DNA of 64,000 nt from Fodinibius sp. Rm-B-1B1-1 (lineage in GTDB: Bacteria; Bacteroidota; Rhodothermia; Balneolales; Balneolaceae), in the NCBI RefSeq assembly GCF_038594945.1, contig NZ_JBCFYD010000002.1, positions 496,001 to 560,000 on the forward strand, given 5' to 3'. The translations under genes were made by a program, and so were the position numbers. The notes below the pieces were generated by a model. That model did not search any database, was not told the origin of the DNA, and saw nothing but the letters and a program-made list of their open reading frames with translations. The first letter of the stretch is position 1; the number at the start of each line of letters is the position of its first letter. Shown one piece after another: positions 6,866 to 14,638 of the stretch.

Positions 6866-9088
6866 ATGGAAAACTTAACTTTAAATATTGATGGCAACCA
6901 TTCCGCCCAGAAGGATAAGTTTACTGTATTACTGTCGTTGAGCAATCCCAAAGATCGCCAGTTAATACAAAACTTTTTGCCGGGCCCGCAGTATATAGAT
7001 ATTCGATTTGTTGATGATTTAATTGACCGTCATGCATATGATCTCTGCATTGTAGACGAGCAGACCTTACCGATCTACAGAAATGTGCTTCAAAAGCTTA
7101 AGAATCAGTCGACTCCGGTGTTCCTGCCAATGTTATTGCTTTCTCAAAATAAGGATCAGGTTAGAAGTGATTCTGCACTTCTGGAATTTGCCGATGATGT
7201 CATATATATCCCCGCCTCTAAAAAAGTGATGAAATCGCGGATCGAATTACTTTTACAGCAGCGGAAATACTCTTTGAAGCTGGAAGAAAAAAATCGACAG
7301 CTCGAACAGAAAAACAAAGAGTTGGCAGAAGAAAAACGCAAATACCAGTTGCTGGCCGACAATTCGACCGACATGATATCGCTTCACAAGCCTGATGGGA
7401 CGTATTTATATGCTTCTCCAGCCAGTAAGGAGTTAACAGGTTATACACCCGAAGAGTTGATCGGACAGAATGTGTTTGAGAATATTCATCCCGATGATAA
7501 AGAAAGGCTGCAGGATGAAGTAAAGGATTTTGAAGACTCAAAAATAGAGCGCTGGGAATTCAGAAAGCAGACAAAAGATGGGAACTTTAAGTGGGTTGAG
7601 GCAGCATTAAGACCTATCGGAGATGAAGAAACTGGCGAAATTATAGAAGTACAGGCCAGTACCCGTGATATTTCGGAACGCAAAGAGTTTGAGAAAAAAC
7701 TCCAGGAAGAGAAGGAGTTTATTGACAAATCGATACAAAGTCTGCCCGAACTTTTCTACCTGATTGATGAGGAACAGAATTTTATCAAATGGAATAATAT
7801 TGAGCAGGAGTTAGGTTATACCGATGAGGAAGTGCAAGATATGGATCCCCTGGATTTTTATCGGGAAGAAGACCGGGAATTTATAACCTCCAAAATTCTG
7901 GAAGCTTTCAAAGAGGGTAGTGCTGAAACGGAAATACAGATGGTATCGAAGAGTGGCGATCTCAAACCTTATTATATTACGGCAAAAAGATTTAGCAGAG
8001 GGGACAACAATTATATTGTCGGTTTCTGTATGAATTTATCTGCGATCAAAGAAGCGCAGTATGAGCTCGAACAGCAGCGTGAACTTCTTGATGCCGTGGT
8101 GAATCAAACGAAATCACTGATCTATATTAAAGATCAAAGTGGGGAATACAGGTTAGTTAATGATAGTTATTTAGCGTTTTACAACTTAAAAAGAGAGAAT
8201 GTTATAGGAAAAAAAGATCGTGAGGTTCATGGACAAAAAATTGCTGATCAGACATTAGGTCAGGATTATAAGGTGTTAGAGGATCAGCAAACCATAGAGG
8301 TGGAAGAAGAAAGGACAAATGGCTACGAAAGCAGATTATATCATACTATAAAATATCCTCTCAGGGGAATACCAGGTTTGGAAAACTGCATGTGTGGAAT
8401 TTGTACAGATGTCTCTGACCGTGTGAAATACGAACAAGAATTAGAAGATTCACTTAAAGAGAAGGAAACCCTGTTGCAGGAAATTCATCACCGGGTAAAA
8501 AACAATCTGGCGGTGGTATCGGGTATGATGGAACTGCAGACATTTAATACGGACAATGAAGAGGTGAAAGGGCTATTGGACGACAGTAAAAACCGAATTA
8601 AAACGATGGCATTGATACACGAAAAGCTGTATGAATCCTCTTCGCTTTCCAGAATTGATTTCGGTTCATACGTTGAAGACCTGCTTGGGAATATTGGAAA
8701 AGTTTCAGCAATTGATAAGCAGATTAAGATCGATTTGAATTATGATTCTTTTAATCTAAATGTTAATCAGGCCGTACCCAGTGCGCTTATCATTAACGAA
8801 GTAGTAGCCAATGCTTTTGAGCATGCTTTTGTGGATAAAAAAGAGGGATTAATCGAAGTTACACTAAAGCAAAATGGCGAAAATATTACCGTCAATATAA
8901 AAGATAACGGTCGCGGATTGCCCGATGATTCCGACTATCGGAGTGAAAAATCGATAGGAATTACTATTATCGAAACACTTATTAAGCAACTTGAAGCTGA
9001 GCAAAAAATAGAAAATAATAACGGCCTTTCGTTTACCTTCACCTTTGCAAAGCAAGATATAAAAGGGTCGTCAAGCTCACTGGTTTAG
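6866..9088 (+). CDS. Multi-PAS sensor histidine kinase (HisKA_2/HWE type)
   Basis: 740 residues without membrane segments. Order: a receiver-like N-terminal region (about 15-130; FTVLLSLSNPKDRQLI, VDEQTLP), a coiled coil (about 130-160), three PAS domains (about 160-275, 285-400 and 405-525; SPASKELTGYTPEELIGQNVFENIHPDD is the clearest), then the phospho-acceptor motif EIHHRVKNN at about 538 and a HATPase domain with NEVVANAFEHAF and DNGRGLPDD. HisKA_2 kinases sense soluble or light signals and phosphorylate response regulators or receiver-only proteins. Its place directly behind a KaiC-like ATPase suggests one signalling pair. No response regulator is adjacent. Confidence 0.9.
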   Translation: MENLTLNIDGNHSAQKDKFTVLLSLSNPKDRQLIQNFLPGPQYIDIRFVDDLIDRHAYDLCIVDEQTLPIYRNVLQKLKNQSTPVFLPMLLLSQNKDQVRSDSALLEFADDVIYIPASKKVMKSRIELLLQQRKYSLKLEEKNRQLEQKNKELAEEKRKYQLLADNSTDMISLHKPDGTYLYASPASKELTGYTPEELIGQNVFENIHPDDKERLQDEVKDFEDSKIERWEFRKQTKDGNFKWVEAALRPIGDEETGEIIEVQASTRDISERKEFEKKLQEEKEFIDKSIQSLPELFYLIDEEQNFIKWNNIEQELGYTDEEVQDMDPLDFYREEDREFITSKILEAFKEGSAETEIQMVSKSGDLKPYYITAKRFSRGDNNYIVGFCMNLSAIKEAQYELEQQRELLDAVVNQTKSLIYIKDQSGEYRLVNDSYLAFYNLKRENVIGKKDREVHGQKIADQTLGQDYKVLEDQQTIEVEEERTNGYESRLYHTIKYPLRGIPGLENCMCGICTDVSDRVKYEQELEDSLKEKETLLQEIHHRVKNNLAVVSGMMELQTFNTDNEEVKGLLDDSKNRIKTMALIHEKLYESSSLSRIDFGSYVEDLLGNIGKVSAIDKQIKIDLNYDSFNLNVNQAVPSALIINEVVANAFEHAFVDKKEGLIEVTLKQNGENITVNIKDNGRGLPDDSDYRSEKSIGITIIETLIKQLEAEQKIENNNGLSFTFTFAKQDIKGSSSSLV

Positions 9089-11022: not shown

Positions 11023-11493
11023 TTAAAGAAGTAAAGCTCCTTCATGTTTCAGGAGAAACTCTTTGCGTTCGATGCCGCCACTGTACCCAACCAAATTGTT
11101 ATTTGCACCGATAACACGATGACAGGGAATGATAATGGGAATGGGATTTTGTCCATTGGCACTACCTACGGCACGTACTTTATTGGGATCACCAAGCTTG
11201 TCAGCTAAGGCCCCATAGGTGATGGTTTGCCCGTATGGAACATCTTGCAATTGCTCCCATATGGATTGTTGAAAGTCGGACCCTTCGGGAGATAATGGCA
11301 GAGAAAAGGAGGTTCGCTGACCTTCAAAATATTCGGAGAGTTGCTTGATGGCTATATCTAAAATTTCGTTTGATGAGGTGGAATTAGCTTCGGATTGGTC
11401 ATCTCCAAAGGTAATGGACTGCAGGGAATTAGCCGAAGCTGTAAGTGTTAACCCGCCGATGGGAGATTCGTAATAGGTTTTCATAAGTGCCAT
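11023..11493 (-). CDS. ogt: Methylated-DNA-protein-cysteine methyltransferase
   Basis: 156 residues. The acceptor cysteine lies in IIIPCHRVIGANN (about residues 122-134), preceded by the DNA-binding helix ADKLGDPNKVRAVGSANGQNP and followed by LVGYSGGIERKEFLLKHEG. This suicide enzyme removes O6-alkyl groups from guanine. The N-terminal half is short, as in Ogt, with no Ada regulatory domain. Two starts (11493 and 11484) are possible and differ by three residues. Confidence 0.92.
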   Translation of the reverse strand: MALMKTYYESPIGGLTLTASANSLQSITFGDDQSEANSTSSNEILDIAIKQLSEYFEGQRTSFSLPLSPEGSDFQQSIWEQLQDVPYGQTITYGALADKLGDPNKVRAVGSANGQNPIPIIIPCHRVIGANNNLVGYSGGIERKEFLLKHEGALLL

Positions 11494-11524: not shown

Positions 11525-11555
11525 TTTGTAACAAAAGGGCCGCGCCATACTCTTG
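11525..11555 (+). promoter_or_regulatory. Bacteroidota-type promoter for small RNA
   Basis: TTTG at 11525-11528, a 19-base spacer, and TACTCTTG at 11548-11555 match the TTTG-N19-TAnnTTTG consensus with one mismatch. The start point would be near 11562. There is no reading frame directly downstream but a structured, terminator-ended segment, so it probably drives the RNA at 11562-11686. Confidence 0.55.
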
Positions 11556-11561
11556 CAAACA

Positions 11562-11686
11562 GAACGCACTATTTATTGTCTCTCTAGACCCCATCTGGTT
11601 AGCCAACCAGATACTCTAGTCACTCCTAAATGCTGAAACCTAAAGCACAGAGCCCCGGGACTGATACTCTCGGGGTTCTTTTTTTT
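11562..11686 (+). ncRNA. Candidate small RNA of about 125 nt
   Basis: A promoter-like pair lies upstream (11525-11555) and a strong terminator closes the segment (11650-11686). Inside is a long hairpin: CTAGA (11584-11588) pairs with TCTAG (11615-11619), enclosing the perfect stem ATCTGGTT (11593-11600) / AACCAGAT (11605-11612) with loop AGCC. There is no open frame of useful length. It is divergent from ogt and ends well before the next kinase gene. It lacks the conserved loops of SRP RNA, RNase P, tmRNA or 6S RNA as far as I can judge. Function unknown; a trans-acting regulator is the simplest guess. Confidence 0.5.
11650..11686 (+). terminator. Rho-independent terminator
   Basis: GAGCCCCG and CGGGGTTC form a G+C-rich stem around a 13-base loop, followed by an uninterrupted run of eight T at 11679-11686. 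It points along the plus strand and has no upstream plus-strand gene other than the proposed small RNA. Confidence 0.75.
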
Positions 11687-11921
11687 ATATATAGCGAGTG
11701 AGCAATTTCAATTCTACATAAAGGCTTTTATAGAAGTAATCAAGATCGAACAATAGTGCATTTATTTTTAAATAATAACTCACTTCTAATAATTTTGTTG
11801 TCATTTTCCAGCTCATATAGATCAGAATTCATTTAGAGTGTTAAAAAATATATGAGGGTAGAAATGATTTATGTCTTATTACTGTTTTAATGTGCCGAAT
11901 ATAGGTGAAAAAAAACTATGT

Positions 11922-11954: not shown

Positions 11955-12070
11955 TATCTCGAATAAAATATTAGTTGCTAATAGAAATTAGCTATCAACG
12001 TAATACATCGGGATTTATAGGTTTCAAAAAGGTTAATGTGGATGGCTCATCCGTAAATACAGGGGTAATT

Positions 12071-14638
12071 ATGGATATACCTACGCTATTTTTCGAGGAT
12101 CATCCAAGTCCTATGTTTATTTTTGATACTGATACGCTGGAGATATTGGAAGTCAATAAAAGTGCAGCAAAAAAGTATGGGTTTTCAAGAGATGAGTTCA
12201 GGCAGTTAACGATCGAGGATATTCGGCCGCCAGAGGATATTCCAATGTTGCATAAAAAACTTAAAGAGCAGGGTAACAAATCCAGGACTTATGATATTGG
12301 CACGTTGCGCCACCGGACAAAAGAGGGAGAAATATTATATGTGCAAATTGCCACCCAGGTTTTTCCAATGGATGAGAGAAATGCCAAGATTGTACACATC
12401 CATGACATTTCAGAAACAATACGGCTGAAAAAAGAAATTGAGGAATCATATCGTGACCAACGCCAGCATATTGAGAACAATCCCTTGGGGATGGTGAAGT
12501 ACGATAATAATTTTAGGATCCTTGAGTGGTCACAGCGAGCGGAGGAAAAAACTGGTTATACGAAAGATGAAATGCTGGGGGCTTCTCTTGTTGAAAAGGA
12601 TTTGTTTGCTGAAGGTGAAAATGAGGAGATAAAACGTCGCCTGGAAAAACTTTCATCAGGTAAGAAGAGCAAAGATCGCTTTGAGACTGCCATAGATCTT
12701 AAGGATGGGAGTAAAATGGATGTATTGATTCATGCTTCGGCACTTCGGAGTAAAAAAGGGACCCTGAAATCGGTACTGGCCTTTATTGAAAATATTAGTG
12801 ATCGCAAGGAGTACGAGCGGGAGTTGATAAGGAGAGAAAAGAAATATCATCGATTATTTGAAGATGCAAATGATGGTATTTTTCTGATGGATGGAATGAC
12901 GATCATTGACTGTAATCGACGAGTCTCTGAAATGGTTGGTTATGATAAAGACGAAATCATTGGTAAAACACCATTGTCTTTTTCCCCCGAATATCAGCCG
13001 GATGGCGTATTATCAAAAGAAAAGGCTGAAGAGAAAATCACCGAGACTATCGAAGGGGCATCCCAGAAATTTGAATGGACGCATGAAAAGAAAAGCGGGG
13101 ATATCGTTAAGACGGAGGTAAGCCTGAATGCTATTTCGTTAGATGAGAATATTTTTATCCAGGCTATTCTAAGAGATTTAACACAGCGTAAAAAAGTACA
13201 AGCAGAGTTAGAAGACGAGAGACAGCGTCTTGAGCGTGCTCAGAGCCTGGCTCGAATCGGTTGGTGGAGCTACGAGGCCGAGGAAAATAAGGTAATATGG
13301 TCGGATGCGCTATTTGATATCCTGGATGTAGATAAAAAAGACTTTGGGAATACCTTTGAAGCTTTTTATGAGTTAGTGCATCCGGACGACCGGTCAACGT
13401 TCGAAGATGTGATGAGCCAGGCCGGTAAAACCGAAGAGCCCCTCGATTATATGCTTCGAATTGGGAAACCCGGAGATGAAGATATCCTTTATGCAAAATG
13501 CCGGGCCGAGAGCAGGTTTGACAGTGAAGGAAATATGATACGCATGTCAGGGGTCTTGCAGGATGTAACCGAACAGCAGAAAGCACAGCAGGAGTTAAAG
13601 CGTCGTGAACGATTATTTACAAGCCTGTTTGAAGATTCTCCCGTTGCAATTGTGATGATTGATACTGACGGGAAAGTGCAACAGCTTAATAAGAGTTTCG
13701 AAGACTTATTTGGTTACTCAGAGGAGCAACTCCGTGGGGAGGATCTGCTTAAGCATCAATTGCCCGAAGAACGACATGACGAGATTGATAAAATTTATGG
13801 AAACGTATTTTCGGCTGAAGGCAGCTCAAAGTATTATGAAGATACGCGGGTAACTAAAGCGGGGGAAGCGAAACATCTTCTTGTGGGAGCATTGCCGGTT
13901 AAAATTAATGGGGAGGCTATTGGGGCATTTGGTATCTATACTGATATTACCAAGCTGCGAAGGACAGAGAGTAATCTAAAAAAGTCACTTAAAGAAAAGG
14001 AAATACTGTTGTCAGAAATTCATCACCGGGTGAAAAATAACCTGGCTATTATTTCGGGGTTATTGCTTCTTGAAGCAATGAACTGGGATGAGGATACGGC
14101 TGTACACGAGGTGCTGATGCAGAGCAAGTTGCGTATTCATTCCATGGCAAAAATCCACGAAAAGCTTTATAAATCTGAGGATTTTGCCAATTTAAACCTG
14201 GAAAATTATGTAGAAGAGCTCGTAGAAACTATTTCAACGAATATGAATGGGGATGGAAAAGATGTTGAAATCAATATTGATTGTGATGAGATATATCTGA
14301 ATATAAATCAGGCCTTACCGTCTGCTCTTATTATCAACGAACTCGTTACCAATTCATTTAAGTATGCATTTCATGAGGGAGAGGATAATAAATTGGAGGT
14401 TAAGTTTAAGCAGCAAGGGGAGAATATAAATATTTTGGTAGCTGATAACGGCTCGGGTCTGCCCAAAGATTTTGAAGTAATGGCGGAGCATTCATTGGGT
14501 TACCAGTTAGTAAATCAACTGGTTAAACAGCTTGATGCAGAAATTAATGTAAAAACAGCTGAAAATGAGGGCGTTTGCTATGAGATTGTATTTGAACGAG
14601 CAGAAAAATCAGGTTCTGCAAGCAGTTATTTTGTTTAG
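12071..14638 (+). CDS. Multi-PAS sensor histidine kinase (HisKA_2/HWE type)
   Basis: 855 residues from ATG 12071. A TTG at 11975 in the same frame would add 32 residues lacking domain character, so I prefer the ATG. Five PAS-like domains follow one another (roughly 1-120, 135-245, 255-370, 380-500, 515-630; for example VNKSAAKKYGFSRDEF and SEMVGYDKDEIIGKTPLSF). Then come EIHHRVKNN at about 648 and a HATPase domain with NELVTNSFKYAF and DNGSGLPKD. It is soluble. Its kinase core and serine-rich tail closely resemble the kinase at 6866-9088, so the two are probably paralogues. No adjacent response regulator. Confidence 0.9.
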   Translation: MDIPTLFFEDHPSPMFIFDTDTLEILEVNKSAAKKYGFSRDEFRQLTIEDIRPPEDIPMLHKKLKEQGNKSRTYDIGTLRHRTKEGEILYVQIATQVFPMDERNAKIVHIHDISETIRLKKEIEESYRDQRQHIENNPLGMVKYDNNFRILEWSQRAEEKTGYTKDEMLGASLVEKDLFAEGENEEIKRRLEKLSSGKKSKDRFETAIDLKDGSKMDVLIHASALRSKKGTLKSVLAFIENISDRKEYERELIRREKKYHRLFEDANDGIFLMDGMTIIDCNRRVSEMVGYDKDEIIGKTPLSFSPEYQPDGVLSKEKAEEKITETIEGASQKFEWTHEKKSGDIVKTEVSLNAISLDENIFIQAILRDLTQRKKVQAELEDERQRLERAQSLARIGWWSYEAEENKVIWSDALFDILDVDKKDFGNTFEAFYELVHPDDRSTFEDVMSQAGKTEEPLDYMLRIGKPGDEDILYAKCRAESRFDSEGNMIRMSGVLQDVTEQQKAQQELKRRERLFTSLFEDSPVAIVMIDTDGKVQQLNKSFEDLFGYSEEQLRGEDLLKHQLPEERHDEIDKIYGNVFSAEGSSKYYEDTRVTKAGEAKHLLVGALPVKINGEAIGAFGIYTDITKLRRTESNLKKSLKEKEILLSEIHHRVKNNLAIISGLLLLEAMNWDEDTAVHEVLMQSKLRIHSMAKIHEKLYKSEDFANLNLENYVEELVETISTNMNGDGKDVEINIDCDEIYLNINQALPSALIINELVTNSFKYAFHEGEDNKLEVKFKQQGENINILVADNGSGLPKDFEVMAEHSLGYQLVNQLVKQLDAEINVKTAENEGVCYEIVFERAEKSGSASSYFV

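Follow-up and report, generated by a model that had tools for sequence, protein, structure and literature searches.

RybB and MicA are sigma-E-dependent small RNAs (sRNAs) of gammaproteobacteria. VrrA of Vibrio cholerae is described as a sigma-E-dependent sRNA of 140 nt with no strict need for Hfq (PMC2628432). The RNA reported here resembles these three in being intergenic, in its similar size and in its apparent transcription by an ECF sigma factor, the last judged from sequence. It differs from them in having no relation to an Rfam family and another promoter motif. Further differences are that its genome has no detectable Hfq, that the candidate sigma factor is associated with a CHAT-TPR protein and that searches for targets were negative.

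Csx30 has a role in sigma factor control. Together with the TPR-CHAT protease Csx29 and a sigma factor, it is described as part of Craspase, the type III-E CRISPR system (PMC10028731, PMC9729208). The locus considered below likewise connects a TPR-CHAT protein with a sigma factor, a likeness that serves for comparison only; unlike Craspase, its output includes a conserved sRNA, and inspection of the ORFs at the ECF locus by eye brought no Cas gene to light. GibS and other intergenic sRNAs of Bacteroides thetaiotaomicron are, like the present RNA, sRNAs of Bacteroidetes, but the portions of that account available to us do not describe them as ECF driven (PMC7366714). According to the same portions, neither Hfq nor ProQ has an obvious homologue in Bacteroides, the housekeeping consensus is TTTG/TAnnTTTG and no motif was known for any ECF factor of B. 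thetaiotaomicron (PMC7366714).

Elements and conservation of the sRNA gene

We analysed a 64,000-nt window of the genome of Fodinibius sp. Rm-B-1B1-1, in which a preliminary description had proposed an unannotated sRNA gene. The elements that it named were confirmed on reading the sequence. A promoter-like TTTG (11525–11528) is followed after 19 nt by TACTCTTG (11548–11555). A 5′ hairpin of 8 bp plus 5 bp (11584–11619, plus strand) is predicted, in which CTAGA/TCTAG (11584–11588/11615–11619) encloses ATCTGGTT/AACCAGAT (11593–11600/11605–11612). An intrinsic terminator (11649–11687, plus strand) has a 12-bp stem (11649–11679), a loop with a conserved GA and eight T residues. As claimed, there is no credible ORF in 11525–11690; just two ORFs of at least 20 codons are present on the sRNA strand, of 27 and 23 codons. 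The predicted sRNA of approximately 125 nt would extend over 11562–11687 on the plus strand, with a putative transcription start at about 11560–11563. Promoter-like and terminator-like matches occur in the region at chance level (8 versus 7.1 and 2 versus 1.9 expected, respectively), and the fold is moderately better than those of shuffled sequences (z −2.79 for the whole stretch and −3.34 for the fold taken from the predicted transcription start). Taken without relatives, the single-sequence evidence for an RNA gene is modest; it is conservation in relatives that raises the gene well above chance.

A blastn search with a 166-base query hit 33 of 97 genomes, own genome included, at E ≤ 0.1, with near full-length matches in seven of the 11 same-genus relatives. 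Before alignment, L030 and L032 were rejected as false homologues on reading (coding DNA; terminator-only similarity), and the alignment does not include second copies from G006 and G057. Among the 29 aligned homologues, ACTCCT (11622–11627, plus strand; unpaired in the predicted fold of the own RNA) and AACCTAA are invariant, the agreement of L035 in the core being by construction since this sequence was found by a pattern search for the core itself. AACCTAA lies within GAAACCTAAAG (11635–11645, plus strand), the most conserved element and a candidate seed, and GAAACCUAAAG is mostly unpaired in the predicted folds of 12 sequences. The terminator stem covaries, with compensatory changes on both sides at all 11 consensus pairs in some sequences. 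The 5′ part of the sRNA varies among homologues. Its hairpin shows one paired change, from G-C to A-T on both sides, in the closest relatives (L004–L006) and is not retained beyond them, the 3′ arm being deleted in some; a long-range CAGCAU/AUGCUG-type pairing is predicted in its place in other genera.

A covariance model built on the 68-nt core scored at least 38 bits in 49 of 92 Balneolaceae genomes, representing 17 of 21 genera. This cut-off was our own choice, set just above the best match outside the family in a phylum sample of 296 genomes, where no genome exceeded 34.3 bits. A threshold of E ≤ 0.01 was rejected, as 134 of the 296 phylum genomes then matched, many by terminator only. The conserved structure that the preliminary description proposed to seek is thus present as a covarying terminator stem and a core model that finds homologues family-wide; conservation in close relatives, whose lack would have counted against the claim, was found as well, and the claim is not refuted on that ground.

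Divergent versions of the RNA lie directly behind the same promoter in six genomes. Four of these, members of genus g17 (G097, G045, G037 and G099), keep GAAACCTAAA and have lost ACTCCT. In G005 and G007, ACTCCT is lost and the core is changed. The core of L138 (G007) and L143 (G005) reads ...CTGAGCCCTGAAGCA where others have GAAACCTAAAGC, possibly a changed seed. Tandem sRNA copies were also seen, two in G006 (G006:C1:888129 and 888566) and three in a row in G057 (G057:C11:160219, 160591 and 160945).

The comparison with Rfam that had been put forward as a check was run, and no Rfam family matches. At the gathering threshold Rfam 15 gave no match in the whole window, and at E 10 there were just weak sub-threshold hits at the sRNA, far below the cut-offs. 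Nor did literature searches turn up any sRNA family described for the Balneolaceae. The sRNA apparently belongs to an unnamed family conserved across the Balneolaceae: a real sRNA family of a known functional kind, absent from Rfam and from the literature searched.

Promoter class, regulon and the ECF sigma factor locus

The preliminary description implied a housekeeping-type promoter (TTTG/TAnnTTTG). We correct this to TGTAACA-N15-ACTCTTG, which has the look of an ECF-type promoter, with a −35-type element at 11527–11533 and a −10-type element at 11549–11555, both on the plus strand. TGTAAC is present in 29/29 homologues, partly by construction because extraction was anchored on GTAAC, and CTCTT is found at fixed spacing in 26/29. 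The similar promoter ascribed to the sensor kinase does not hold for the relevant motif, since TGTAACAN{13,18}CTCTTG occurs once in the window, at the sRNA. In the whole own genome this pattern has eight sites compared with one for the reversed pattern, and across 92 family genomes TGTAACAN{13,15}ACTCTTG has 194 sites compared with two.

The own-genome sites precede a small lipoprotein-like ORF (two sites) and the genes for a TPR membrane protein, an export adaptor, an Hpt protein, a response regulator and an HU-like/DUF4469 protein, in addition to the sRNA. In 32 further stretches from G003, G005, G010 and G101, Hpt, response regulator, HU-like and export/RND ORFs recur, as do secreted protease-like and pilin-like ORFs, ParA and AraC-type proteins; the names in these stretches were given by eye because domain tests covered the own-genome copies only. 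A single-domain response regulator and an Hpt protein lie behind the same ECF-type promoter (G000:C2:283743 and G000:C1:1563187), and this sharing suggests that the regulon may include a phosphorelay. The best NCBIfam match of the response regulator is the PhyR family, below the cut-off.

Two promoter sites stand beside an own-genome gene (G000:C1:207108-207671) for a 188-residue protein with sigma-70-ECF similarity. Its Pfam sigma-70 matches are below the cut-off, and among four orthologs scored against NCBIfam TIGR02937 (sigma70-ECF; 39.4, 45.3, 37.1 and 41.0 bits) one passes the cut-off of 42.9. With orthology defined as at least 180 bits, a threshold of our own, the ECF gene is present in 53 of the 92 family genomes, and these hold 188 of the 194 promoter sites. 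Both sRNA and ECF gene occur in 46 genomes, the sRNA only in three, the ECF gene only in seven and neither in 36, so that 10 genomes are discordant (Fisher's p 4e-15, a value that ignores phylogeny). For genomes at least 90% complete, the corresponding counts are 39, one, six and 21. The presence of the pair is patchy within g19 and g20, and two genomes of the host's own genus (G001 and G011) are without sRNA, promoter sites and ECF ortholog alike. Of the genomes with the ECF gene only, five (G007, G097, G045, G037 and G099) hold a divergent RNA behind the promoter, the other two being G027 and G036. In the sRNA-only genomes (G102, G110 and G022) the ECF hit is weaker, partial or interrupted, and G102 and G110 are incomplete.

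In all nine ECF loci that were read, promoters of the sRNA type flank the ECF gene and precede a TPR gene, with a CHAT-TPR gene between; no such promoter was seen in front of the ECF gene itself. For the CHAT and TPR domains, the Pfam test covered the own-genome copy. Conserved at this locus (G000:C1:207000-213100, that is L051, 6106-12020, and L111–L118) are the ECF gene, a small lipoprotein-like ORF and genes for a CHAT-TPR protein (about 1000 aa) and for a membrane TPR protein that shows weak anti-sigma similarity; TGTAACA promoters lie on either side. It is possible that the locus encodes a protease-controlled sigma factor. The promoter common to the sRNA and the ECF locus suggests a regulatory role for the sRNA, with activation by that stress-type sigma factor. 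In the genome comparison, the sRNA family has an unusually clear link to an ECF factor that is itself coupled to a CHAT protein.

Target searches, neighbouring genes and alternative explanations

Our target searches were partial, consisting of pattern searches rather than prediction over all genes, and their negative outcome is the chief weakness of the mechanism proposed below. Complements of GAAACCTAA, sought as TTTRGGTTTYR, were not enriched over the control in five genomes (163 matches on both strands, compared with 215 for the reversed pattern). None of the 20 exact TTTAGGTTTC places that were read is conserved at a gene start, although in the own genome an ORF begins 30 nt downstream of one of them (G000:C1:816105). 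Anti-SD-type sites of the form TAGGAGTGN{0,12}ATG showed no enrichment in seven genomes (50, compared with 111 for a control that is unfair because the pattern can hold a stop codon), and the contexts of 30 fetched TAGGAGTGN-type loci revealed no conserved target. Duplex energies with the ECF, CHAT and TPR mRNAs of seven of the nine ECF loci were no better than those of shuffled sequences (lowest p 0.12). With regard to RNA-binding proteins, there is no match to the Hfq family PF17209 in the genome, for a search whose control was positive in 5/14, and one RRM_1 protein is encoded (89.5 bits), which could be a partner of the sRNA.

The sRNA lies, as originally described, between ogt and a sensor kinase. 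The ogt gene (11023–11493, minus strand) encodes an O6-alkylguanine-DNA alkyltransferase, with Pfam DNA_binding_1 and Methyltransf_1N above the cut-off; it is the divergent neighbour here and, by tblastn, the upstream neighbour or nearby in most homologous loci. The kinase gene (11975–14638, plus strand; PAS-HisKA_2 by Pfam) lies outside the sRNA unit. It is one of two PAS-HisKA_2 kinases (window 6866–9088 and 11975–14638) that flank the ogt/sRNA region. Upstream ORFs, as called by a crude ORF caller (L015 has one overlapping ORF), are divergent in 27/29 homologous loci, and the next downstream ORF is convergent in 24/29 and on the same strand in 5/29. These orientations, together with terminator covariation, mark the sRNA as an independent transcription unit with an intrinsic terminator. 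The proposal of an independent RNA gene with promoter, hairpin and terminator accordingly gains support from the conserved core, the covarying terminator, the promoter at fixed spacing and the orientation of flanking genes.

These data bear directly on whether the RNA might instead be a cis-acting leader or attenuator of the kinase. The kinase does lie downstream on the same strand in this genome, and TAGGTTTCA at 12018–12026, complementary over 9 nt to the conserved motif of the sRNA, is found about 50 nt before the likely ATG of the kinase (12071). However, the convergent downstream gene in 24 loci implies that the sRNA is no leader of the kinase, a strong terminator stands between the two, and in G002, G004 and G008 there is no kinase beside the sRNA, a convergent MFS gene being directly downstream; in this window the kinase separates the sRNA from the MFS gene. 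A leader is therefore highly improbable. The site at 12018–12026 was also rejected as a conserved target since the kinase is not there in relatives. A small protein gene is still harder to credit: a 23-codon ATG ORF exists (11630–11701), but many homologues have another sequence in place of its ATG (AAGCTG, CACTCTG), and its frame is broken by indels before the terminator. That the sRNA is driven by a housekeeping sigma factor is very unlikely. TTTG does precede TAAC here and in 17/29 homologues; against this, TAnnTTTG is found in 0/29, the 12/29 without TTTG nevertheless keep TGTAAC, and the sRNA co-occurs with one ECF gene.

The shape of 6S RNA is a long rod with a central bubble, and typical decoy RNAs carry repeated copies of a motif. 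A divergent 6S RNA might be supposed from the finding that the RF00013 covariance model has no match in the genome, yet the predicted folds consist of separate short hairpins, no sub-threshold 6S hit was obtained, and the sRNA is absent from most ECF-lacking relatives, unlike a housekeeping RNA; we consider this reading scarcely credible. An RNA of the ECF regulon could also act as a decoy for a protein, such as the RRM protein or another RNA-binding regulator, rather than by pairing with mRNAs. The lack of signal in target searches, the two short invariant and mostly single-stranded motifs, which would fit a protein site, and the RRM_1 protein encoded in the genome are all consistent with this. 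Nevertheless, inspection of the alignment revealed no repeated motif copies within one RNA, and we regard a decoy as unlikely.

Proposed mechanism and implications

We favour, with a probability of about 0.72, an independent trans-acting regulatory RNA of approximately 125 nt that is transcribed by an ECF sigma factor and pairs through GAAACCUAAAG to down-regulate mRNAs. The gene, its conservation, structure, promoter class and regulon, and its co-occurrence with the ECF gene are read from the genomes themselves. In the mechanism we propose, one ECF sigma factor, encoded beside CHAT-TPR (caspase-like) and membrane TPR proteins, would read the sRNA promoter. Once active, it would give rise to the sRNA along with the rest of the regulon, namely the small lipoprotein/CHAT locus, response regulator, Hpt protein, export adaptor and HU-like protein. 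The exposed GAAACCUAAAG would then pair with mRNAs, perhaps helped by ACUCCU, and lead to their down-regulation, so that the sRNA would constitute the repressing arm of an activator. Transcription of the sRNA and recognition of its promoter by the ECF protein are what we infer; pairing in trans is presumed, repression would be the expected outcome by analogy with VrrA, RybB and MicA, and control of the sigma factor by the CHAT/TPR pair is likewise conjectured. In a bolder scheme, the sRNA would be the RNA arm of a stress programme gated by a caspase-like protease: cleavage of the membrane TPR protein by the CHAT-TPR protein would free the ECF factor, and the sRNA made in response would silence mRNAs without Hfq. 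Such a lineage-wide protease–sigma–sRNA circuit in Balneolaceae is tentative and in our view rather doubtful.

If the pairing reading is true, targets would carry UUUAGGUUUC-like sites. With its promoter motif defined, a candidate sigma factor named and a regulon predicted, the sRNA allows a direct test of ECF control over an sRNA in a lineage where Hfq is not detected. How ECF sigma factors are coupled with CHAT-TPR proteins is little understood, and the sRNA also offers a readout for this pairing.
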